Shown here: positions 49,009 through 63,798 of the stretch, piece after piece
Layout of the letters: the number at the start of each line of letters is the position of its first letter
How positions within the stretch are numbered: the stretch's first letter is position 1
Assembly: GCF_022808855.1 (NCBI RefSeq)
Contig: NZ_JAKZLF010000004.1
Span: 124,001-188,000 of the forward strand
Length of the DNA stretch: 64,000 nt
Origin: Anaeromyxobacter soli
Lineage (GTDB): Bacteria; Myxococcota; Myxococcia; Myxococcales; Anaeromyxobacteraceae
Direction of reading: 5' to 3'
Made by a program: the position numbers and the translations under genes
The notes under the pieces: model-generated
What the model was told of the DNA's origin: nothing
The model's input: only the letters and a program-made list of their open reading frames with translations
The model's database searches: none

Positions 49009-49360
<352 letters not shown>

Positions 49361-49363
49361 GCA

Positions 49364-49391
49364 AGCCCGCGGGAACGCGGGCTTTTGTTTT
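49364..49391 (+). terminator. Terminator of the reconstituted ssrA, island-borne
   Basis: An 8-bp stem AGCCCGCG/CGCGGGCT with a GGAA loop and the tail TTTGTTTT, directly after attL. It was presumably carried in by the island to replace the host terminator now past attR. Confidence 0.85.
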
Positions 49392-49829: not shown

Positions 49830-50195
49830 TCACTCGGACTTCTGGCGGCCGAAGATGTACCCGGTCACGAGCGACAGCAGCCCGATGATTGCGGAGTCCA
49901 GCTTGCCCCGAAGCTGCAGCAGGATAGCCGCGCCAAGAATCCCAGCGAGCAGAGCGTATCGCGCCAGCGCGTTCAGAACTTCGAGACGATGCTGATTTAC
50001 CTGCCCCGCGCGAAAGCCGCCAAGAAGTTCTCCGACCTTCTCTGAAGCGGCCTTGCCATTCGGGCCGTTCAGGAATCGGAAAATGTAGTAGCCGAGGCCC
50101 GCGTTAGGCGGCATCGGCTCCGGGTCCGTCTGGACCTCGACCGATGGTGGCGCATCTGGCTCTTGCTTCACGGTAGCAAGCTTGGTGTCGGACAC
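49830..50195 (-). CDS. Small island protein with two C-terminal membrane helices
   Basis: 121 residues from GTG 50195, with AGGAGGAG before it. The N-terminal half is polar and acidic (VKQEPDAPPSVEVQTDPEP). The C-terminal half has two hydrophobic helices (YALLAGILGAAILLQL and LDSAIIGLLSLVTGYIFG). The family is unknown; phage or plasmid accessory membrane proteins look alike. It is divergent from the restriction gene at 50383, and the 187-base gap contains TTGACA at 50348, a possible -35 box for that gene. Confidence 0.6.
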   Translation of the reverse strand: MSDTKLATVKQEPDAPPSVEVQTDPEPMPPNAGLGYYIFRFLNGPNGKAASEKVGELLGGFRAGQVNQHRLEVLNALARYALLAGILGAAILLQLRGKLDSAIIGLLSLVTGYIFGRQKSE

Positions 50196-50382
50196 GGCTC
50201 CTCCTGAGGTTCGATACAACGCGCCTCTGACGAGGAGTGTGTGTTGCCAACCAAGTGCAGACAGCGGACGGGCCAAACACAGCCTCCTCGCCCCGCCCCT
50301 GCTCCCGAACGCTCCACACTGGGGGAGGGGGCGGGGGGAGCGTGCGGTTGACAGCCCGCCTGGGGCCTGCTCACCTGCCGGC

Positions 50383-51267
50383 ATGCCTTCCGCTCATTAC
50401 CGCGGCGCCCCCGGTCCGACGTGGCTCGCGATCACGCGGGCGCTCGTCCAGGAACACCCCCTCTTCAGCGACCCAAGCACTCTGCTATCCCGCGTTACCG
50501 AGGCCTGGGATGCGGTTTGGGGAACGCAGGTTGGGGTTGCCCCGCTCGCCATTCCGTTTGCGGAGTTGGACCCCCGGGCTGCGATCGTAGGCGACTTCTT
50601 CGAAACCCTGCTCTCGTATCGCTTGGCGCAGTCGGGCGAGTGGCGTCGCGGCACCTCCGCCGAGAAGGACCTGATCTACCTCGGGAAGGCTGAGGGTGAC
50701 CTTGACACCGAGATAAAGACGTCCGGACAGGCCGGCGGGTACATCTACGGTAACCGGAGCTACGCTCAGCCAGACAAAGAAGGCAAGCTCGAGTCAGCCG
50801 CCCGCAAGAAGCGCGCCGGGTACTACCTGTGCGTCAACTTCCATGGCAGCGCCATTTTCCGCGTGCGAGTCGGCTGGATTGATGCGGAGGACTGGGAGCC
50901 GCAGAAGGCGCCGACCGGCCAAATGGCAGGCCTCAAGAAGCATGTCTACGAGTACAAGCTGCTCGAAGTTCCGGGTGACCATTATCTCGGCGCACCGCTC
51001 CGGGTGGTGGATGGAGTGGGCTCGAAGCGGCTCGGTACTCTTGCGGACGCCGGGTTTCAAAGCGTCGGTGACGTCGCCCTCCGCCTTCAGGCTGCCGCCC
51101 TCGACCCGAAGCGCTGGGCTTCACTTCCGCAGGCCGAGCGAGCCCGGGTCCTTGATGTCACCCCCGAGGTCGGTGACATACTGAGGGTCGTGGTCGGAAC
51201 GGATTACTTTGATGCCGCTTGGCCGTTCACCGTCCGCCGCAAGTCACAACAGCGAAGTCTGCGCTGA
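50383..51267 (+). CDS. Type II restriction endonuclease, ScaI-like
   Basis: 294 residues. The catalytic PD-(D/E)xK core is visible as SAEKDLIYLGKAEGDLDTEIKTSG (in parts: the Asp of EKDLIYL and the ExK of TEIKTSG), followed by GGYIYGNRSYAQ. Later motifs AGYYLCVNFHG, RVGWIDAEDW and QKAPTGQMAGLKKHVYEYKL match what I recall of the ScaI family (AGTACT cutters). A helix-hairpin-helix-like region (GSKRLGTLADAGFQSVGDVA) ends the protein. Its 3' end overlaps the convergent methyltransferase by 24 bases. Confidence 0.72.
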   Translation: MPSAHYRGAPGPTWLAITRALVQEHPLFSDPSTLLSRVTEAWDAVWGTQVGVAPLAIPFAELDPRAAIVGDFFETLLSYRLAQSGEWRRGTSAEKDLIYLGKAEGDLDTEIKTSGQAGGYIYGNRSYAQPDKEGKLESAARKKRAGYYLCVNFHGSAIFRVRVGWIDAEDWEPQKAPTGQMAGLKKHVYEYKLLEVPGDHYLGAPLRVVDGVGSKRLGTLADAGFQSVGDVALRLQAAALDPKRWASLPQAERARVLDVTPEVGDILRVVVGTDYFDAAWPFTVRRKSQQRSLR

Positions 51268-52251
51268 TCCAGCCGCGCGCTCGCGCTGATACTGTCGGAA
51301 CCGCTCGACGGCGAGGGCGCAGTAGCGTTCGCTGATCTCCACGCCTAGGAACACCCTCGCGTTCCCAACAGCGGCAATGCCGGCCGACCCGGAGCCCGAG
51401 AACGGATCAATAACAACATCGCCCGGCTCCGAGGACACCTTCACTATACGGTCAACAACTGCCAGCGGGAACTGAGCAGGGTGTGGCGTTCGCTCCCGCG
51501 ATGACCTGTTGCGTCCGGTGGTGACCTTGGGGATGGACCAAACGTCGGACGGATTCTTCCCGAGCGGGTTGCACCGGAGTTTCCCATTCTTCTTCTGGTT
51601 CGGGTACTTCACGTTGGGGTCTCGAACCAGGTCCAAGTTGAAAACGTAGTTGCGCTCGTCCTTTACGTAGTAAAGCCACTTCTCGTTTCTTGGGCAAAAT
51701 GTCTGCTTAGTCGATACCCCGGCGCCGTACGTCCAGACAATTTCCTGATTGAAGAAGAACGGGGAGCGGTCCCACAGCATGTACGGCAGCGGCACCGCCT
51801 TGGCCTTCCCGGGAACCGATACGTACCCGAGGTTGAGCCACAACGCGCCATCTGGTGTTGCGATGTTGTGGATGGCTCCCATCCACTCCGAGCACCACTG
51901 CAAGTACTCAGGCAGGGGGCGCGGCTTCTCGTACTCCTTCCCGATGTTGTACGGCGGCGACGTTAGGCAAAGCCGTGCCGTGACGCCCGCTTGGTGAAGT
52001 CGACGCAGCAGCGGTAGCGAGTCTCCGCAGTACAGGATGTATCCGTCCGCCGCGAAGTAGGGTTCGCCCACATCGCTCCGAAGCTGGGCAACCAACCGCT
52101 CGAACTCTACCGACGCCAAGCTGGCGTGGTCTCCTTGGACTCGCGTGAGCAGATGACGAGGAGCAACGGTGGTTGGCTGATGGCGCGGTGGCGCGAGTTT
52201 GCTGGCCGGCTGCACTCTGTCTCCGTAGCATGGCGGTCCGACACGGGTCAT
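51244..52251 (-). CDS. Restriction-modification DNA methyltransferase (SPPY type, probably m4C)
   Basis: 335 residues from ATG 52251; a GTG at 52215 with GGAG five bases upstream may be the real start. Motif IV is CLTSPPYNIGKEYE, where SPPY favours N4-cytosine methylation. Motif I, DPFSGSGSAGIAAVGNA, comes late, giving beta order. The S-P-P-Y enzyme next to a ScaI-like nuclease forms a complete type II system. The tail-to-tail layout may let antisense transcription balance the two enzymes. Confidence 0.85.
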   Translation of the reverse strand: MTRVGPPCYGDRVQPASKLAPPRHQPTTVAPRHLLTRVQGDHASLASVEFERLVAQLRSDVGEPYFAADGYILYCGDSLPLLRRLHQAGVTARLCLTSPPYNIGKEYEKPRPLPEYLQWCSEWMGAIHNIATPDGALWLNLGYVSVPGKAKAVPLPYMLWDRSPFFFNQEIVWTYGAGVSTKQTFCPRNEKWLYYVKDERNYVFNLDLVRDPNVKYPNQKKNGKLRCNPLGKNPSDVWSIPKVTTGRNRSSRERTPHPAQFPLAVVDRIVKVSSEPGDVVIDPFSGSGSAGIAAVGNARVFLGVEISERYCALAVERFRQYQRERAAGSAQTSLL

Positions 52252-52265
52252 CGCCGCGAGGGCTT

Positions 52266-53453
52266 TCAGCGCCCATCACCGGTGAGGAGGGCCCATCTGT
52301 GCTCGACGAGTGGCACCGTCGCCTCGACTTGCATGTGTGTGTACCGCTCCGTCGCCTTCGTGTCGGCGTGCCCTAGCATCAAGGCGATGGCCTTCTGGCT
52401 GGCGCCGAGGACAGCGTAGCTCGACCCGGAGGTGTGGCGTGCGCCGTGAGACGTGATCTCGCGGACGCCCGCCTCGCGGGACAGTTCCCGGTACCACCGG
52501 TTGAGGCTGTTGTTGGCGAGCGGCCCGCCATCGGGGCCCGGGAAGAGCAACTGGCCCTCCACCTTGAACATCCAGACCTTGAGCTCGTCGGCGACGCCGC
52601 GCGGTATCACATGGAAGCGTGCGCGCCGGTTCTTGGGCGTCGTGATCGCCTTCCGTGCCATCGACCGCCGCACCCACGGCCCTGGGGCGCTCAGGTCAAG
52701 GTCCTGCTTCTCGAGCGCCCTCAATTCACCGAAGCGGATTCCGACAACGAGCTGGACCAGGAGCGGCATGTAGCGCTCCGGGTGCCGGGCGCGCCAGCTC
52801 TCCCGAAGGAGCGCCATCGCCTTCGCCTCTTCCGCTGGCGTCCACCATGCCCGCGACTCCTCCGGTGTGGTCTCCGCCTTGAGCCAGGCGGACGGTGTGA
52901 TCGGGTTCGTCGGCACGTGCTTGTACTCGACGGCCTTCTGGAAGATGCGCCGGAGGACCGACACGTGGTTGTTGATCGTGTGCGCACCGTAGCCGACGCC
53001 GTACTGGTGCTCTTGCTGTCGCTTGAGCGCCTTGTACTGGTCGATCAGGCGCGCGTCGATGTCGCGTAGCTGCCGTGCCCCGAAGAACGGCACGAGGTGG
53101 TTGTCGAGAATCGAGCGGTCCGTCTCCACGCCGCTCTCGCGCTTGTCGGGGGCCACGCATGTCTTGAACCACTCCTCGGCGAAGGCGGCGAAGCTGAGCC
53201 CCGGCCCCCGCTGGGAGCGTTCACGCGATTCGAGCGCATCAAGGAATTGTGCGACCTCCCCGCGAGTGACGGCCTCGCGCGCCGCGTTGTGAAGGTCGCG
53301 AAAGACTCGCACCGCCTCCGCCTTGCTCTTCGCGGGGAAGGGAACGCCGCGCGCCTTGAGCTGCGCGTCATCCGCAGGAGCCTCGTCCACGAAGTTGATC
53401 CATCTGTCGATGCCACCGCGAACCTGAAGACGCTTCCTCCACACGATGCTCAT
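52266..53453 (-). CDS. int: Tyrosine-type site-specific integrase
   Basis: 395 residues. An N-terminal arm domain (residues 1-95) is followed by a SAM-like core-binding domain (LSFAAFAEEWFKTCVAP to YGAHTINNHVSVLRRIFQ) and the catalytic domain. Catalytic residues appear as Arg in VGIRFGELRAL, the His-x-x-Arg box SHGARHTSGSSYA, His in MLGHADTKATERYTHMQ and Tyr in ERYTH. It should integrate and excise the island at ssrA. GGAGG precedes the ATG at 53453. The excisionase-like gene overlaps its start by 86 bases. Confidence 0.92.
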   Translation of the reverse strand: MSIVWRKRLQVRGGIDRWINFVDEAPADDAQLKARGVPFPAKSKAEAVRVFRDLHNAAREAVTRGEVAQFLDALESRERSQRGPGLSFAAFAEEWFKTCVAPDKRESGVETDRSILDNHLVPFFGARQLRDIDARLIDQYKALKRQQEHQYGVGYGAHTINNHVSVLRRIFQKAVEYKHVPTNPITPSAWLKAETTPEESRAWWTPAEEAKAMALLRESWRARHPERYMPLLVQLVVGIRFGELRALEKQDLDLSAPGPWVRRSMARKAITTPKNRRARFHVIPRGVADELKVWMFKVEGQLLFPGPDGGPLANNSLNRWYRELSREAGVREITSHGARHTSGSSYAVLGASQKAIALMLGHADTKATERYTHMQVEATVPLVEHRWALLTGDGR

Positions 53454-53910
53454 GAGAACCTCCCTGACCGGGCTGGAGGCCGAGGACGTCGGCCTTGAAG
53501 ATTCGTCGCGTTGTTCCGACCAAGCGCGCCGGCACCTTCCCTGGTGGCAGCGGCGGAACCGGGCCGGCCGGGATGATCGCGAGGTGTCGCGCCAGCGTTC
53601 GGTGATCGACACCGAGCCAGGCCGCGGCTTCCTTGATGGTCATCCCTTCGGGTTGAAGTGGCGGCCCCGCGTGCAGGAGCGACCCGAGCACGGGCGCCGC
53701 TTCTGCCTCCAAGCGCGAGGCTGCCGAGATTGCGCGGACGAGCACGCGAACGTCGCCCCCTGCACCGGCGCCAGGGGACCCGTGCGCAGCTGCTCCCGCA
53801 GCAAGCGAAGGCGGTCCGACGGTGTGCTTGCGCCGCACCGGAGTTCCGTAGTGAAGAGGGAGCGCGGCCGGGGTCGCGCCGACAACAGACATCGCCGAAC
53901 TCGTCGTCAT
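53368..53910 (-). CDS. Excisionase-like helix-turn-helix protein
   Basis: 180 residues. A Pro/Ala-rich N-terminal half precedes a MerR/Xis-like helix-turn-helix (MTIKEAAAWLGVDHRTLARH) and a wing ending RLVGTTRRIFKADVLGL. The C-terminal 28 residues overlap the integrase start in another frame. Position and fold suggest a directionality factor that also couples translation to int. The ATG at 53910 has GGGAG nearby; a shorter start at the internal Met before TIKEAAAWLG is possible. Confidence 0.65.
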   Translation of the reverse strand: MTTSSAMSVVGATPAALPLHYGTPVRRKHTVGPPSLAAGAAAHGSPGAGAGGDVRVLVRAISAASRLEAEAAPVLGSLLHAGPPLQPEGMTIKEAAAWLGVDHRTLARHLAIIPAGPVPPLPPGKVPARLVGTTRRIFKADVLGLQPGQGGSHEHRVEEASSGSRWHRQMDQLRGRGSCG

Positions 53911-56298: not shown

Positions 56299-56976
56299 CT
56301 ACGAGCCAGCGTTTCCACCGCCAACTCCGTCGGTTGGGTTTGAAAAGGAGGATTTTCCGCCCCATTCCTTCGCGAGGGCGTCCACCGCTTCCACCTTCCG
56401 GCCGAACGCCGAGTGGAGGTAGCGCGCGGTGGTCGCGATGGCCGCGTGGCCCAGGAGGTCCCGAACCGTGGCGAGGTCGGCGCCGGCCCGGAGCAGTCCC
56501 GTCGCGCACGTGTGCCGGAGGGAGTGCGGCGTGATCCGCTTGGTGATGCCTGCCTCACGGACCGCTCGTGCGACGAGGCCATCGACCGCCTTGGGCGTCA
56601 GCGGGCCAGGTCGGTAGGGCCCCCGCTGCCCAAGCGTCAGGAACATCGGCGCGTCGGGGGATGGCGATTCCGCTCCGTACGCGTGAGCCAAGTAGGACCG
56701 GATGGCCTTCTCAGTCGCATCGGGCAGCGGCACCTGCCGCTTGAGCTTCTTACCCGTGCGCTTCTTGAGCGTCTCGAAATGAAGGCACGTGCGCCCTTGG
56801 TACTCCTTCAGGTCGCCGACGGTCAGGGCGCAGAGCTCACCCTCCCGAAGTCCGCCATGACTGAGCACGCTCAGAACGGCGGCGTCCCGCTTCCCTTGGA
56901 GCGTTCGGCGGTCGGGCACATCGAGGAGGCGCTTCACCTCGGCTTCGTCCAAGAATTCAGTTGGTCGTTCGTTCAT
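56299..56976 (-). CDS. Minimal tyrosine recombinase (XerC/D-like catalytic domain)
   Basis: 225 residues, essentially the catalytic domain only. Active-site elements are [13 protein letters not shown] (Arg), [18 protein letters not shown] (HxxR), [15 protein letters not shown] (His/Trp position and Tyr). The usual N-terminal SAM-like domain is missing apart from a 30-residue lead-in. It may resolve dimers, assist integration or be a captured Xer gene. The ATG at 56976 has no clear ribosome site; an upstream in-frame start at 57066 is possible but Gly-rich and unconvincing. Confidence 0.8.
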
Positions 56977-57333
56977 GGCTGCGATTTCGTTAGCCCCGCC
57001 CCATCCAGCCCGTCTAGTACCGAGGGCATAAGTGCCATCGCCGCTGGGGCTCTCTCCGCGCTGCACACGGATCTATGGCAACGCGGGAATGACCCGCGTA
57101 TGGCGATGTGGGATGACCGGGCGCTCTCGCGCGCGTCACTGTGTGTGCATGGCATGCGCGGCGAGCGGGACCGGCGCGGCGGCCACCTCCGCGATACCAG
57201 CCGGGCTCCAACCTTCAATGGCGCGGATCACTCGCGCTCAAGGCCGGTGCGGCCGAGCACGCGCGCAGAAGACGGCCTGGCCGCGCCCGTTAGAGCCGGG
57301 GGCTATCGGCCAGCTCGCGACCAGCTGCGGGGT
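56977..57333. other. 357-base intergenic region in the island
   Basis: This lies between the small recombinase and the lipoprotein gene, both read leftward. It has a 7-bp stem hairpin (ACGCGGG/CCCGCGT, 57081-57099) and an 11-base dyad GCATGGCATGC at 57147-57157. No convincing gene is seen in it. It may hold the recombinase promoter. Confidence 0.4.
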
Positions 57334-58420: not shown

Positions 58421-58666
58421 ATGACGTGCACACACTGCGGGAAGCCGCTCAGGCGAAGTCAGACGCGCGACAACGGAAGGCTCAAGTCCTGCCCGAACTG
58501 CTCGAAGCAGAGCCCGGCGAGAGAACACGTCTTCCATCCCGCCGACAGCTTCGGAGCGAGCGACAAACGCGTCACGGACGAGCACCCTGACGGCGTTCAG
58601 AGTTGGTGCGCGGCTTGCCGTACAAAGCAGGGGCCGGTGACGGGCGTCTCCTGTTCCGCGCTGTAG
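58421..58666 (+). CDS. Small zinc-ribbon protein
   Basis: 81 residues with three CxxC pairs: MTCTHCGKPL, KSCPNCSKQS and SWCAACRTKQ. GGAGG six bases before the ATG supports it as a real gene. The middle part (HVFHPADSFGASDKRVTDEH) resembles small phage or plasmid zinc-finger proteins. Function is unknown. It lies 84 bases after the XRE gene and 46 before the next gene, in one rightward unit. Confidence 0.65.
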   Translation: MTCTHCGKPLRRSQTRDNGRLKSCPNCSKQSPAREHVFHPADSFGASDKRVTDEHPDGVQSWCAACRTKQGPVTGVSCSAL

Positions 58667-58712: not shown

Positions 58713-59333
58713 ATGTCGCAGGAGGCGAAGGGCAAGTCGGAATTCGAAGTCGCCCATGAGATCAAGACTCTCCTTGAGGCACTCCCGCCCGAGAAGCGCG
58801 AGATGGCGTTACGATGGGCACGGGAGGCCGCTGGCCTGCCACCGCACGCCGCTCCCTCTCACCCCACAACAGCCGTCGTCGAACCCCGGAAGCCTGCGGC
58901 CCCTGACGCAGGGCCAGTAGGGGCGGCGCCGCGTCAGAAGACGTTGAAGGACTTCGTCGCGGAGAAGCAGCCGAAGAGCGACGTGCAGTTTGCCGCGACG
59001 GTCGCGTACTTCCACCGATTCGAAGCCACCGAGGACGCGCGTAAAGAAGAGATCACCGCGGACGACCTCCAAGACGGGGCCCGACTGGCCGGCAGATCCA
59101 GGTTCAAGCTGCCATCTGCCACGCTCAACAACAGCGTTGGCCTGGGTTACCTCGACCGTGGCAGCGAACGCGGAAAGTATCGGCTCAATGCAGTCGGTGA
59201 GAATCTCGTCGCGATGGCGCTTCCGGGGAATGGATCCAGCCGCGCGCCCGCGACAGGGAGGGCGCGGCGAAAGCCGCGCGAAGCCGCCAAGCCATCCGGG
59301 AAGTCGCCAAGGAAGCGCGCTTCCAAGAAGTAG
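58713..59333 (+). CDS. Winged-helix-like protein with basic tail (first of a two-gene unit)
   Basis: 206 residues. Residues 1-40 are helical (FEVAHEIKTLLEALPPEKRE). Then comes a conserved-looking domain: KTLKDFVAEKQPKSDVQFAA, VAYFHRFEATED, ITADDLQDGARL, LNNSVGLGYLDRGSERGKYRL. This reads like a winged helix I associate with conflict-system proteins, but I cannot name it. The tail is Lys/Arg-rich (RRKPREAAKPSGKSPRKRAS). GGAGG seven bases upstream fixes ATG 58713. The next gene starts 3 bases after the stop. Confidence 0.6.
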   Translation: MSQEAKGKSEFEVAHEIKTLLEALPPEKREMALRWAREAAGLPPHAAPSHPTTAVVEPRKPAAPDAGPVGAAPRQKTLKDFVAEKQPKSDVQFAATVAYFHRFEATEDARKEEITADDLQDGARLAGRSRFKLPSATLNNSVGLGYLDRGSERGKYRLNAVGENLVAMALPGNGSSRAPATGRARRKPREAAKPSGKSPRKRASKK

Positions 59334-59336
59334 GCA

Positions 59337-60167
59337 ATGGCCGGGGCACTCTCCGCCGTCGAGGCTGCGTTGGATGCCGTGGAACGGCAGTCGCGCAGCC
59401 TCGCACGTGCCAAGCATCGACAGGTTCGGTCCGGGGACGAGATAGCAGCCCTGAAAGCTCTTGCGTACTCGTGGTTCGAGACGTTCAAGCCGCAGCTTCT
59501 TGGACCGTTTACCGCTGGGGACCTGGCATCCGCCGATCGCGCCCTCCGAGAGGTATTGAACGCGACGGCACGCCTTTCAAGTCGAGCCAAGTACGCTGGC
59601 CACTTGAAGCAGGCCAAGGAGGCCCTCGTGGGCCTTCGTGCGCGGGCGGCCGACTTAGGCGCCCAAGCCGTTCCGAGCCCGGGGAACGGGAACGAACCAC
59701 CTCCTTCGTTCACGGCACTCGCCCCTGATGTCCGGATGCAGGAGATCTTGGCGCGCCGCTGGGAGGAGATCGAGCGGTGCCTCGCCGGTGACGCTGCTCT
59801 CGCAGCCACCGTGATGATGGGTGGTCTCCTTGAGAGTTTGTTCCTGGCCCGCATCAATCGAACCTCCAACCGCAAGGCTATCTTCACGGCCAAGGGCTCG
59901 CCGAAAGACAAGAAGACGGGAAACCCGCTCCCGCTGAGCGACTGGTCTCTGATGCACTACATCGAGGTGAGCCACGAACTTCGATGGATCACCAAGTCGG
60001 CCAAGGAGGTCGGCGGAGTTCTGCGTGAGTTCAGAAACTACATCCACCCGCACAAAGAATTCACGGATAGCGTAGCCGTTACCATCTCGGATGCCGAGAT
60101 GTTCTGGTCTTTGACCAAGAGCATGACGAAGCAGGTACTGGCCTCAACGGCGCTGCCGCCCCTCTAG
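59337..60167 (+). CDS. HEPN-like domain protein (second of a two-gene unit)
   Basis: 276 residues. The N-terminal half is helical (GDEIAALKALAYSWFETFKP). The C-terminal half has the layout of HEPN-like domains: MMGGLLESLFLARIN, WSLMHYIEVSHELRWI and LREFRNYIHPHKEF, where Arg-Asn-x-x-His matches the RNase motif of many HEPN proteins. HEPN nucleases act in toxin-antitoxin and abortive-infection systems. With the partner at 58713 it may form a defence or addiction unit (inference). It is convergent with the gene at 60168, sharing no bases. Confidence 0.6.
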   Translation: MAGALSAVEAALDAVERQSRSLARAKHRQVRSGDEIAALKALAYSWFETFKPQLLGPFTAGDLASADRALREVLNATARLSSRAKYAGHLKQAKEALVGLRARAADLGAQAVPSPGNGNEPPPSFTALAPDVRMQEILARRWEEIERCLAGDAALAATVMMGGLLESLFLARINRTSNRKAIFTAKGSPKDKKTGNPLPLSDWSLMHYIEVSHELRWITKSAKEVGGVLREFRNYIHPHKEFTDSVAVTISDAEMFWSLTKSMTKQVLASTALPPL

Positions 60168-60910: not shown

Positions 60911-61016
60911 GGTTGTGCTCCCGGCCCGCATCTGGCCGAACTGGACCGAACCCGCGTTCCGACATAAGCTCCACGGTCGCCAACGCCTTTGGCCCTCGTC
61001 CAGCCGTCAGGCCGTC

Positions 61017-61040
61017 TTCGATTCCCGGCGCCTCCACTTC
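61017..61040 (+). repeat. attR, right attachment repeat
   Basis: The 24 bases are identical to attL (49337-49360): a fragment of the tmRNA T-loop and acceptor end with no tmRNA body upstream. It marks the original host 3' end of ssrA. Confidence 0.9.
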
Positions 61041-61042
61041 AG

Positions 61043-61068
61043 AACCCCGCGATGCCGCGGGGTTTTTC
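61043..61068 (+). terminator. Original host ssrA terminator, displaced
   Basis: Stem AACCCCGC/GCGGGGTT, a six-base loop and TTTC tail, 2 bases after attR. It now lies 11.7 kb from the gene it served. Confidence 0.8.
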
Positions 61069-61302: not shown

Positions 61303-62061
61303 CTACTTCGCCGTCTTCTGCGCCTTCGTCAAGTCGCCCTTCACCTTCCTGATCGACTCGCCGCCGAGCTTCACGCGGTGGGCGTTGTGGACGAGCCGGT
61401 CGCAGACGGCGTCGGCGATCGTTTCGTCGCCGATGACGGAGTGCCACTCCTTGGGCTCGAGCTGGCTGGTGACGATCGTGGAGGTCGTGCCGTAGCGGTC
61501 CTCGAGCACCTCGAGCAGATCCTTCCGCTGGGCGGCGTTCAGCACCTCGAGCCCGAAGTCGTCGAGGATGAGCACATCGGTCTTGGCAAGGCGGCGGAGC
61601 AGGAGGAAGTGCGAGCCGTCGGCCCTGGCCTGGGCGACCTCGTCGAGCAGCCGCGACGCCCGGCGGTACACGACGGTGTAGCCGTCGCGGCACGCCTTCT
61701 GGCCGAGGGCGCACGCGAGGTAGCTCTTCCCCACGCCGGTGAGCCCCGTGAAGATCACGTTCTGGTGCGCCGTCACCCAGCGACACGCGGCGAGGTCGAG
61801 CATCACCGACTTCGCGAGGCCGCGCGCGTGCTGGTAGTCGATGTCCTCGACACTGGCGTCCTGCCGGAAGCGAGCGTTGCGCAGTCGCGCGGTGAGCCGT
61901 TTCTGCTCGCGGTCGTTCCACTCGGCATCAGCGAGCAGGCCGATGAGATCGAGCGGGGACATGTCCTTCTCCTTGGGCCGCTCGAGCCAGCGGCGCAGCG
62001 CCTCCGCCATCCCTGGAAGCTTCATCGATACGAGCTTCTGCATCGTCTGCTCGACGAGCAT
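61303..62061 (-). CDS. istB: IS21-family helper ATPase IstB
   Basis: 252 residues, normal for IstB. The N-terminal helical domain (VSMKLPGMAEALRRWLERP) precedes a DnaC-like AAA+ core with Walker A FTGLTGVGKSYLACALG and Walker B VLILDDFGLE. The Arg-finger region is near EWHSVIGDETIADAVCDRL. IstB assembles on target DNA and stimulates the IstA transposase. It starts 93 bases after the istA stop. Confidence 0.95.
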   Translation of the reverse strand: MLVEQTMQKLVSMKLPGMAEALRRWLERPKEKDMSPLDLIGLLADAEWNDREQKRLTARLRNARFRQDASVEDIDYQHARGLAKSVMLDLAACRWVTAHQNVIFTGLTGVGKSYLACALGQKACRDGYTVVYRRASRLLDEVAQARADGSHFLLLRRLAKTDVLILDDFGLEVLNAAQRKDLLEVLEDRYGTTSTIVTSQLEPKEWHSVIGDETIADAVCDRLVHNAHRVKLGGESIRKVKGDLTKAQKTAK

Positions 62062-62154
62062 GCGTCTCTCCGTTGGCCTCGATGATCACGACCGCGGGCG
62101 TGATCGCCCAGCGCCCGCTGCGCCGCGAGGCCGCTCCGGCGCGGTCTCGTTGCG

Positions 62155-63699
62155 TCAGTTGAGGTAGTACCGGCTGCCGCGGATGTTCTCGTGGAGCGGC
62201 AGCGAGCCCTGCGGCTCGTCGCCGGGCAGCGGCTCCTGGTCGAGGTTGTTCTTCAGGATCGCGGCGATGCTTGTGTACGTGAGCGTCCGGTACCGCAGCG
62301 CCCGGGCGCTGGCGCGCTCGAGCCGCTCGGGCGTGTACTCCTTGCCGAGCCGGAGGATCCCGAGGCATCGCTTGAAGCCCTGCTGCGGGTGGACCTTCGA
62401 GGCCATGATCGCCTCGACGAGCGCGACGGTCTGCGGCCCAGACTTCTTCGCCCAGCCGGCGATCCGCTCGGGCGTCCACTCGACGTGATCGCGATGGTCA
62501 CGCGGCATGTGCTCCTTCCGCGTGGTGTACTTTCCCTTCGCGTAGCTGCGCGGGTAGCTCTCGAGCCGCCTCCCACTCTTGAAGATCTCGATCGTGGCCT
62601 CGGTGGCGCGCAGGTCGAGCTGCTGACCGATGAGCCCGAAGTGGACGCTGTAGAAGTGGTCGTCGTGCGCGACGTGGTAGTCGGGCGCAACCTTCGGCCT
62701 CGACCACTCGGCAAGCTCGTACGGGCGCACCGGCAGAGGCTTCAGCGCAGCCCGCTCGATCTCGTCGAAGAGCTGCCGTCGCGACTTCTTCAGCAGCCGC
62801 ATCGGCCGGGCGTTCAGCTTCTCGAGCAGCTCCGCCACCGCCGTCCTCAGCTCCTCCATCGAGTAGAACGTCCGGTTCCGCAGCACGGCAAGGATCCACC
62901 GCTCGGCGATGAGCACCGCCGCCTCGACCTTCGCCTTGTCGCGCGGCCGGTGCGGGCGCGCTGGGATCACGGCCGCCTCGTAGTGACGCGCGAGGTCGGC
63001 GTACGTCGGGTTGAGATCGGGGTCGTACTTGCTCGCGCGCGTGACGCCGACCTTCGGATTGTCGGGTACCCAGATCGGCGTCACGCCGCCGAAGTACTCG
63101 AAAGCCCGCACGTGGCAGCCGATCCACGTCGGCAGGTCCTGGTGAAGCACGGGCTCGACGTAGGTCAGGTTCGACGCGCCGAGCACGGCGACGAAGAGCA
63201 CCGCCTTCTGGCATTCGCCGGTGAAGGCGTTCACGACGTCGAGGCCGTCGCCGCTGAAGTCGATGAAGGTCTTCTCGCCGGCGCGGTGCGCCTGGCGCAT
63301 CGTCGCCGACAGCGGCCGCGCCCAGCGCAGGTACCGATCGCAGAATTGGCTGTACTGGAGGCCGCCCGGCTGCGCCTCCTTGTACTCGTGCCAGAGCAGC
63401 ATCTTCGTGACGTGCCGCCGCTGCAGCTCGGTGTGGATCCACGCCCAGTCTGGCTCGGGGCGGTTCGACACCGGCCGGTGCTCGTCGGGGAAGAGGAGCC
63501 GCTCGAGCGCGGTGTCGTCGTCGAGCTCCGGCGGCAGCGGCCAGGAGAGCCCTGCGAGCGCGATGCGCCCCGCGTACTCGGCCACCGTGCTCGGCGACAG
63601 CCCGCAGCTTCGCGCGATCGCACGGCCCGACTGGCCGGCCTGGAGCTTCAGCCTGATGATCTCTCGCAGCTTCCGCATCGGTAGCCTCTCGGCCGCCAT
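62155..63699 (-). CDS. istA: IS21-family transposase IstA
   Basis: 514 residues. The ATG at 63699 has AAGGAGG five bases upstream and is preferred over 63750. The N-terminal helix-turn-helix (RKLREIIRLKLQAGQSGRAI) is followed by an RNase H-fold DDE core. Asp is in TFIDFSGDGLDV, Asp in WVPDNPKVGV and Glu in RDKAKVEAAVL. A C-terminal domain contains DYHVAHDDHFYSVHFGLIGQ. It catalyses cut and strand transfer at the 23-bp-period ends. Confidence 0.95.
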   Translation of the reverse strand: MAAERLPMRKLREIIRLKLQAGQSGRAIARSCGLSPSTVAEYAGRIALAGLSWPLPPELDDDTALERLLFPDEHRPVSNRPEPDWAWIHTELQRRHVTKMLLWHEYKEAQPGGLQYSQFCDRYLRWARPLSATMRQAHRAGEKTFIDFSGDGLDVVNAFTGECQKAVLFVAVLGASNLTYVEPVLHQDLPTWIGCHVRAFEYFGGVTPIWVPDNPKVGVTRASKYDPDLNPTYADLARHYEAAVIPARPHRPRDKAKVEAAVLIAERWILAVLRNRTFYSMEELRTAVAELLEKLNARPMRLLKKSRRQLFDEIERAALKPLPVRPYELAEWSRPKVAPDYHVAHDDHFYSVHFGLIGQQLDLRATEATIEIFKSGRRLESYPRSYAKGKYTTRKEHMPRDHRDHVEWTPERIAGWAKKSGPQTVALVEAIMASKVHPQQGFKRCLGILRLGKEYTPERLERASARALRYRTLTYTSIAAILKNNLDQEPLPGDEPQGSLPLHENIRGSRYYLN

Positions 63700-63798
63700 C
63701 CCGCCTCCTTGTGGAGGCGGCATCAGCGGCGGACTACCCAGCGGCGTCAACGCTCCCGAGCGCCCGGCCGAGGCCGGTCACCTGGCTATGCGTTCAGC

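Follow-up and report, generated by a model that had tools for sequence, protein, structure and literature searches.

Genomic Context of the Gene Pair

The window analyzed here is a stretch of 64,000 nucleotides from the 5.3 Mb genome of Anaeromyxobacter soli, and all coordinates given below are positions within it. Two open reading frames on its + strand, each with an ATG start, lie at 58713–59333 (gene 1, 206 aa) and 59337–60167 (gene 2, 276 aa), and the spacing of 3 bases that an earlier note had read from the letters alone was recovered in the ORF check.

The pair is cargo of an island that is integrated at a tmRNA gene (49009–49357, + strand), and it sits near the right end of that island; this placement rests on the att repeats, the integrases, the lower GC content, and the absence from eight other members of the genus. 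The 3′ end of the tmRNA gene forms one att site (49332–49386), and a second copy of this repeat (61012–61066, + strand), which matches it at 82% over 55 nt and includes a 24-nt identical core, TTCGATTCCCGGCGCCTCCACTTC, marks the right end of the island, with 11.7 kb lying between the two. Besides genes 1 and 2 and an HTH protein, the island carries a ScaI-type restriction endonuclease (50182–51267, + strand; PF09569, E 7e-36), the N6/N4 DNA methyltransferase of the same restriction-modification (R-M) pair (51244–52251, − strand; PF01555, E 1e-48), a phage-type integrase that is probably the island's own (52266–53612, − strand; PF00589, E 1e-19), and a second tyrosine recombinase (56299–57066, − strand; PF00589, E 6e-34). 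Its GC content is 66%, as against 74% in the left flank, and gene 2 was absent from all eight of the other genus members that were searched. The earlier note had placed the pair beside restriction genes, at an integrated island's right edge, and the att repeats together with the ScaI-like R-M genes at 50182–52251 bear this out.

Two further features adjoin this arrangement. A small Cys-rich, zinc-ribbon-like protein is encoded at 58421–58666, 46 bases upstream of gene 1, and is not conserved with the pair elsewhere; an IS21-type istB and istA (61303–63750) lie immediately beyond the right att site.

Structural Organization of the Two Proteins

The gene 1 product is predicted to consist of an N-terminal helical hairpin, a variable linker, a winged helix, and a basic tail. 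The hairpin (residues 10–40; 58740–58832, + strand) is formed in the AlphaFold model by helices at residues 10–22 and 26–40, and its consensus in the homologue alignment reads ...eRIlRWv.EkLG, with R31, R34, W35, and E38 near-invariant. Beyond a linker that is predicted to be disordered, the winged helix (residues ~78–168; 58944–59216, + strand; residues ~80–174 in the model) is supported both by AlphaFold, with pLDDT values of 82–98 at residues 71–160 and 85 at residues 161–170, and by structural matches, the best of which are to RosR, PadR, and the MarR family (Z 8.7–7.6). The segment that had first suggested a winged-helix-like domain, KTLKDFVAEKQPKSDVQFAA, corresponds to residues 76–95 and runs into the predicted winged helix. 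Prediction and alignment together define a low-confidence Lys/Arg-rich tail (residues 172–206; 59226–59330, + strand), in which lysine and arginine account for a mean of 40% of the last 28 residues among 25 homologues; the basic tail described in the earlier note is present, and its winged helix is supported by the prediction. On the predicted model, gene 1 looks like a DNA-binding adaptor.

The AlphaFold model of gene 2 has a mean pLDDT of 92.9 and resolves into two helical domains. The N-terminal four-helix domain (residues 2–111; 59340–59669, + strand) matches generic four-helix bundles in structure comparison, and it also occurs on a protein of another locus (L156), where it is joined to a different nuclease domain. 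The C-terminal domain (residues ~126–270; 59712–60146, + strand) is assigned to the HEPN superfamily on the basis of AlphaFold, structure matches, and a sub-threshold match to DUF4145. Among the 50 PDB matches listed by VIA-align, all 12 that align to the C-terminal domain alone are HEPN proteins, with Z 9.3–11.6 and rmsd 2.6–4.2, and the structures matched among those listed include AF0298, MntA-HepT, MNT-HEPN, AbiA, Csm6′, and P95883_SULSO. Z values below ~13 are not decisive for helical bundles, and the assignment therefore draws on the HEPN-specific character of the match list together with the active-site motif, not on Z alone. Foldseek E-values are weak (≥0.45), and sequence profiles compared with the PDB gave chance-level matches only. 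The DUF4145 (PF13643) match spans residues 144–243 at 13.9 bits, below the Pfam gathering cut-off of 23.1; similar matches at E ≤ 0.1 were found in 40 of 90 relatives, all of them likewise sub-threshold, with a best E of 1.3e-4. The HEPN fold of the second protein had been named beforehand as one of two points on which the original proposal would stand or fall, the other being the joint occurrence of homologues of the two genes, and it is the fold that is predicted. Judged from this model, gene 2 looks like an RNA-cutting toxin.

The RNxxHP Motif

The predicted active site is the RNYIHP motif at residues 233–238 (60033–60050, + strand), located where HEPN helix 3 ends. In the AlphaFold model a helix spanning residues 220–236 carries the motif at its end and breaks at residue 237. 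HEPN helix 2 contributes Glu166 (59832–59834, + strand), which is invariant in 25/25 sequences and falls within a predicted helix at residues 154–175, so that the acidic helix-2 residue of the HEPN superfamily is present as well. The same complete invariance extends to R233, N234, H237, and P238 in the 25 gene 2 sequences, with the proviso that RNxxH formed part of the search pattern used to collect gene 2 loci, which means that its invariance in those loci arises partly by selection; independent support for the motif comes from P238, from E166, and from the presence of RN..HP in relatives recovered by tblastn without the pattern. The stretches FRNYIHPHKE and LLESLFLARIN rank among the best conserved of gene 2.

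The R-N-x-x-H signature expected from the earlier note accordingly holds as far as the invariant R, N, and H are concerned, but its conserved form is R-N-x-x-H-P, and its spacing departs from the standard one. HEPN domains carry an Rx4-6H active site at the end of helix 3 (PMC3710099). In gene 2 the position of the motif and its R-N element, with a polar residue after R, fit this pattern, but the histidine stands at R+4, and the R-x3-H that results is shorter by one residue than the canonical spacing. The next histidine, H239, which would give R-x5-H, is kept in only 7/25 sequences, the position being otherwise E, Q, Y, or F. Families with altered motifs are still classed as HEPN (PMC3710099), and the short spacing therefore concerns activity more than membership of the fold. 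A distant relative of gene 1 (L160) has a partner with an otherwise similar motif at canonical spacing, LRNSSGHPN, and alignment by eye with this sequence suggests that H237 is the equivalent of the canonical HEPN histidine.

Distribution and Pairing of the Two Genes

Single-sequence scans of the viral and genome collections returned no match because the peptides chosen were poorly conserved, an obstacle that was overcome by aligning the C-terminal domain of gene 2 around RNxxHP and searching the genome collection with the result. This search yielded 229 relatives, of which 80 were kept, comprising a close subfamily (L059–L086) and a sister clade of 52 loci (L087–L138). Gene 1 lies directly upstream of gene 2 in 26/26 subfamily loci with enough upstream DNA, the two outside this count being L063, truncated where its contig ends, and the single-gene locus L082. 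The intergenic gaps are usually 0–27 nt and range from about −4 nt, with one value of −35 that probably reflects a mis-called start; in one locus (L084) gene 2 is apparently frameshifted. The 24 gene 2 homologues at 35–50% full-length identity have gene 1 adjoining in every case that could be assessed, an association far above chance. The neighborhood survey proposed in the earlier note thus finds homologues of the two genes together wherever the subfamily can be assessed, and in none of the 52 sister-clade loci was a gene 1 homologue detected.

Two further lines of evidence tie the genes to each other. Exactly one copy of gene 1, the paired one, is present in 17 of the 18 subfamily genomes searched, the exception being the L082 genome, and the distances between gene 1 sequences co-vary with those between gene 2 sequences (Mantel r 0.67, p 0.0001, n 23). 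According to record titles, the subfamily spans at least 11 phyla, namely Verrucomicrobiota, Chloroflexota, Pseudomonadota, Myxococcota, Acidobacteriota, Planctomycetota, Gemmatimonadota, Bacteroidota, Patescibacteria, Bdellovibrionota, and Elusimicrobiota. A search of the phylum recovered a relative from the same order, a Myxococcaceae MAG, and in a single myxobacterial relative (G111) gene 1 is followed by gene 2 as in the window, at ~50% identity.

A search of the subfamily neighborhoods for a third conserved gene found none; what they have in common is limited to integrases, transposases, and a small number of two-locus matches. Pfam and PADLOC annotation of 138 neighbors identified integrases (4), YhcG nucleases (2), type IIG R-M proteins (2), and a Bpu10I endonuclease, counts that stand without a background control and are consistent with, not proof of, a location in defense islands. 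Neither gene had a match among phage records, and gene 1 had none among plasmids.

Individual loci show additional features. In Niastella caeni a second, more distant gene 1-like winged-helix protein is encoded just upstream of the pair (L080:3461-3940). In G111 (L009:6127-11190) the pair adjoins an integrase that neighbors a histidyl-tRNA-synthetase-like gene, and the C-terminus of a protein kinase beside the pair contains RNAAVHG, a possible further HEPN motif. The single-gene locus (L082:4386-5447) encodes a close HEPN relative that occurs without gene 1 and has, by eye, its own wHTH-like region at the N-terminus, which by HMM is not a gene 1 homologue. Relatives of the gene 2 HEPN domain are also found on viral contigs and, in Streptomyces, downstream of large AAA/helicase-like proteins. 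In Prevotella a caspase-domain protein is encoded directly downstream of a sister-clade HEPN protein (L005:6381-7877).

Distant Relatives of Gene 1 and Their Partners

More distant relatives of gene 1, recovered in genome surveys, stand beside putative effectors other than gene 2. In G382 (L156:707-2076) such a relative is followed by a protein that joins the gene 2 N-terminal domain (48 bits) to a pPIWI-associated nuclease domain (PF18165, 44.7 bits, over the cut-off); PF18166 was not found in G382, and the unit is flanked, as judged by eye, by HsdS-like and DUF262-like genes. Four further genomes, G516, G539, G1003, and G1224 (L157, L158, L164, and L163, respectively), encode a gene 1-like winged-helix protein, a ParA-like ATPase recognized by eye, and an extra RelA/SpoT protein that scores over the PF04607 cut-off, a conserved three-gene unit that looks like an undescribed alarmone-synthetase conflict system. 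The remaining partners, assigned by eye, are HEPN-like (L160, L165, and L013), PLD-like (L166), and possibly nucleotide-hydrolase-like (L162).

Comparison with Known Systems

Searches of Pfam, PHROGs, NCBIfam, and PADLOC gave no significant match for either gene, PADLOC-DB 2.0.0 has none for gene 1, gene 2, or a close homologue, and the pair is not named in the open-licence papers searched. Since none of these libraries names the pair, the description of it as undescribed, already used in the earlier note, holds with respect to Pfam, PHROGs, NCBIfam, and PADLOC.

The nearest relatives of gene 2 are AbiJ-type/DUF4145-like HEPN proteins, with which it shares the C-terminal domain, the RN..HP motif, and a similar length (~280 aa). 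The HEPN domain of the sister clade is the same domain as that of gene 2 (hhalign probability 100%, E 7e-43) and keeps the same motif, and the difference between the two groups lies in what precedes it: the sister clade lacks gene 1 and has an AbiJ_NTD3/Stk2-like N-terminal part, recognized through weak matches to Stk2 (29/90 members) and to AbiJ_NTD3, whereas the four-helix domain of the pair is unrelated to that part, hhalign returning no match (probability 0.2%). Membership of AbiJ sensu stricto was rejected, as gene 2 has no Pfam AbiJ_NTD match and the characteristic AbiJ-NTD1-5 fusion is absent.

Other two-component arrangements were compared in the same way. HepT/MntA (HEPN-MNT) resembles the pair in its HEPN fold (Z 10.7 with 6m6w), in its two-gene organization, and in having the HEPN protein as presumed toxin, but its partner is a nucleotidyltransferase where ours is a winged helix, so that neutralization by AMPylation is not expected, and the motif of gene 2 is one residue shorter. 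With a winged-helix partner and no third conserved gene, the pair was not assigned to the HEPN-MNT toxin-antitoxin systems. CoCoNuT CnuE (PMC11090510) likewise combines wHTH with HEPN RNases, and motif-length variants are reported in that work; here, however, there are no McrBC/helicase genes, and the wHTH and HEPN domains reside on separate proteins, and membership was rejected on these defining features. Panacea (PanA/PanT, PMC8832971) recalls the gene 1 family in that one partner is found beside several unrelated toxin-like proteins, RelA/SpoT types included, but gene 1 has no Panacea/DUF4065 domain, as judged by the lack of a Pfam match. The conserved two-gene operon typical of type II toxin-antitoxin systems is present, in 26/26 loci.

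Functional Models

The pair is real, conserved, and mobile, it belongs with HEPN-effector conflict modules, and it is probably an undescribed kind of phage-defense or toxin-antitoxin cassette. The reading that we favor, with moderate confidence, is a mobile adaptor-plus-HEPN-RNase cassette of the abortive-infection or toxin-antitoxin type, which largely upholds the interpretation given in the earlier note. In such a cassette gene 2 would be the effector, with a HEPN domain that is probably dimeric and would cleave RNA through R233-N234/H237 with E166 nearby, and its four-helix domain would couple it to gene 1. The winged helix and basic tail of gene 1 may bind nucleic acid, whether invader DNA, the gene's own promoter, or both. 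Its hairpin and winged helix would restrain the effector until a cue from a phage or from foreign DNA appears, whereupon the released gene 2 product would shut down translation. Judged from sequence, gene 1 may be either a classical antitoxin or an activating sensor. The analysis shows the ORFs, their co-conservation, the predicted folds, the invariant motif, and the mobile-island setting, and it is from these that we infer that gene 2 is toxic and acts as an RNase, that gene 1 silences it, that a cue releases it, and that the pair defends against phages. The main caution on an RNase model is the precedent of AbiA, whose HEPN motif is perfect but for which RNase activity was not seen, R581A/H588A mutants having kept defense (PMC11077055).

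This precedent also bears on the rather unlikely reading of gene 2 as a non-catalytic HEPN scaffold that serves dimerization or RNA binding, with gene 1 as a transcription regulator of mobile-element or host genes. The short R-x3-H spacing would fit it, and inactive or dispensable HEPN domains are known in MtlR and AbiA (PMC3710099, PMC11077055), but all 25 of the diverse homologues keep R, N, H, and E, RN..HP recurs in relatives found without the pattern, and the sister clade pairs the same motif with AbiJ/Stk2-like N-terminal domains. A plain type II toxin-antitoxin system, in which gene 1 would be a DNA-binding antitoxin with both neutralizing and autoregulating roles, gene 2 a HEPN toxin, and stabilization of the island, more than phage sensing, the main role of the pair, is of similarly low probability. 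It would account for two genes with the regulator first, the short gap, the mobile island, and the horizontal spread over phyla, and the occurrence of gene 1 relatives beside unrelated toxin-like partners recalls promiscuous antitoxins such as Panacea (PMC8832971, PMC10440598); both proteins, however, exceed the size of typical type II partners, gene 2 carries an additional N-terminal domain that is conserved, and a ParA ATPase is interposed between the gene 1 relative and the RelA/SpoT gene in L157, L158, L163, and L164. HEPN proteins have been proposed as back-ups of R-M systems (PMC3710099), and the R-M genes share the island with the pair; even so, dependence of the pair on the ScaI-like system, as an accessory regulator or back-up suicide unit, is very improbable, as 6.5 kb separates the pair from the R-M genes, and at the other loci these genes do not adjoin it.

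Around the adaptor-plus-RNase cassette a wider reading can be drawn, which we put forward tentatively, as plausible but somewhat short of probable: gene 1 may represent an undescribed, widespread adaptor family, built of a helical hairpin and a winged helix, that serves a polymorphic conflict system with interchangeable effectors, and the HEPN branch of this system would work through an R-x3-H site of reduced length. On this reading, and with the same reserve, the effectors would comprise RNxxHP HEPN RNases, a pPIWI-associated nuclease on the four-helix platform of gene 2, ParA with RelA/SpoT synthetases, and the HEPN-, PLD-, and nucleotidase-like proteins. This sharing of an adaptor is the most novel part of the proposal and is unproved; if it is correct, the family would add to the cases in which a single sensing or neutralizing partner governs many toxins, and gene 1 would offer a handle for finding further defense systems. 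More immediately, two unannotated ORFs become a testable system, a compact winged-helix and HEPN cassette spread over many phyla on mobile DNA, and the variant active site raises the question of the minimum length of the HEPN motif.

Distant gene 1 matches at E 0.002–0.1 were for the most part unconvincing, many of them falling in long unrelated frames or containing internal stops, and were set aside with the exception of L013. At that locus (L013:274-2016), in a genome of the same family (G047), a gene 1-like protein is encoded upstream of a protein with IRNNRNVGHVGG, a HEPN- or Abi_C-like motif.
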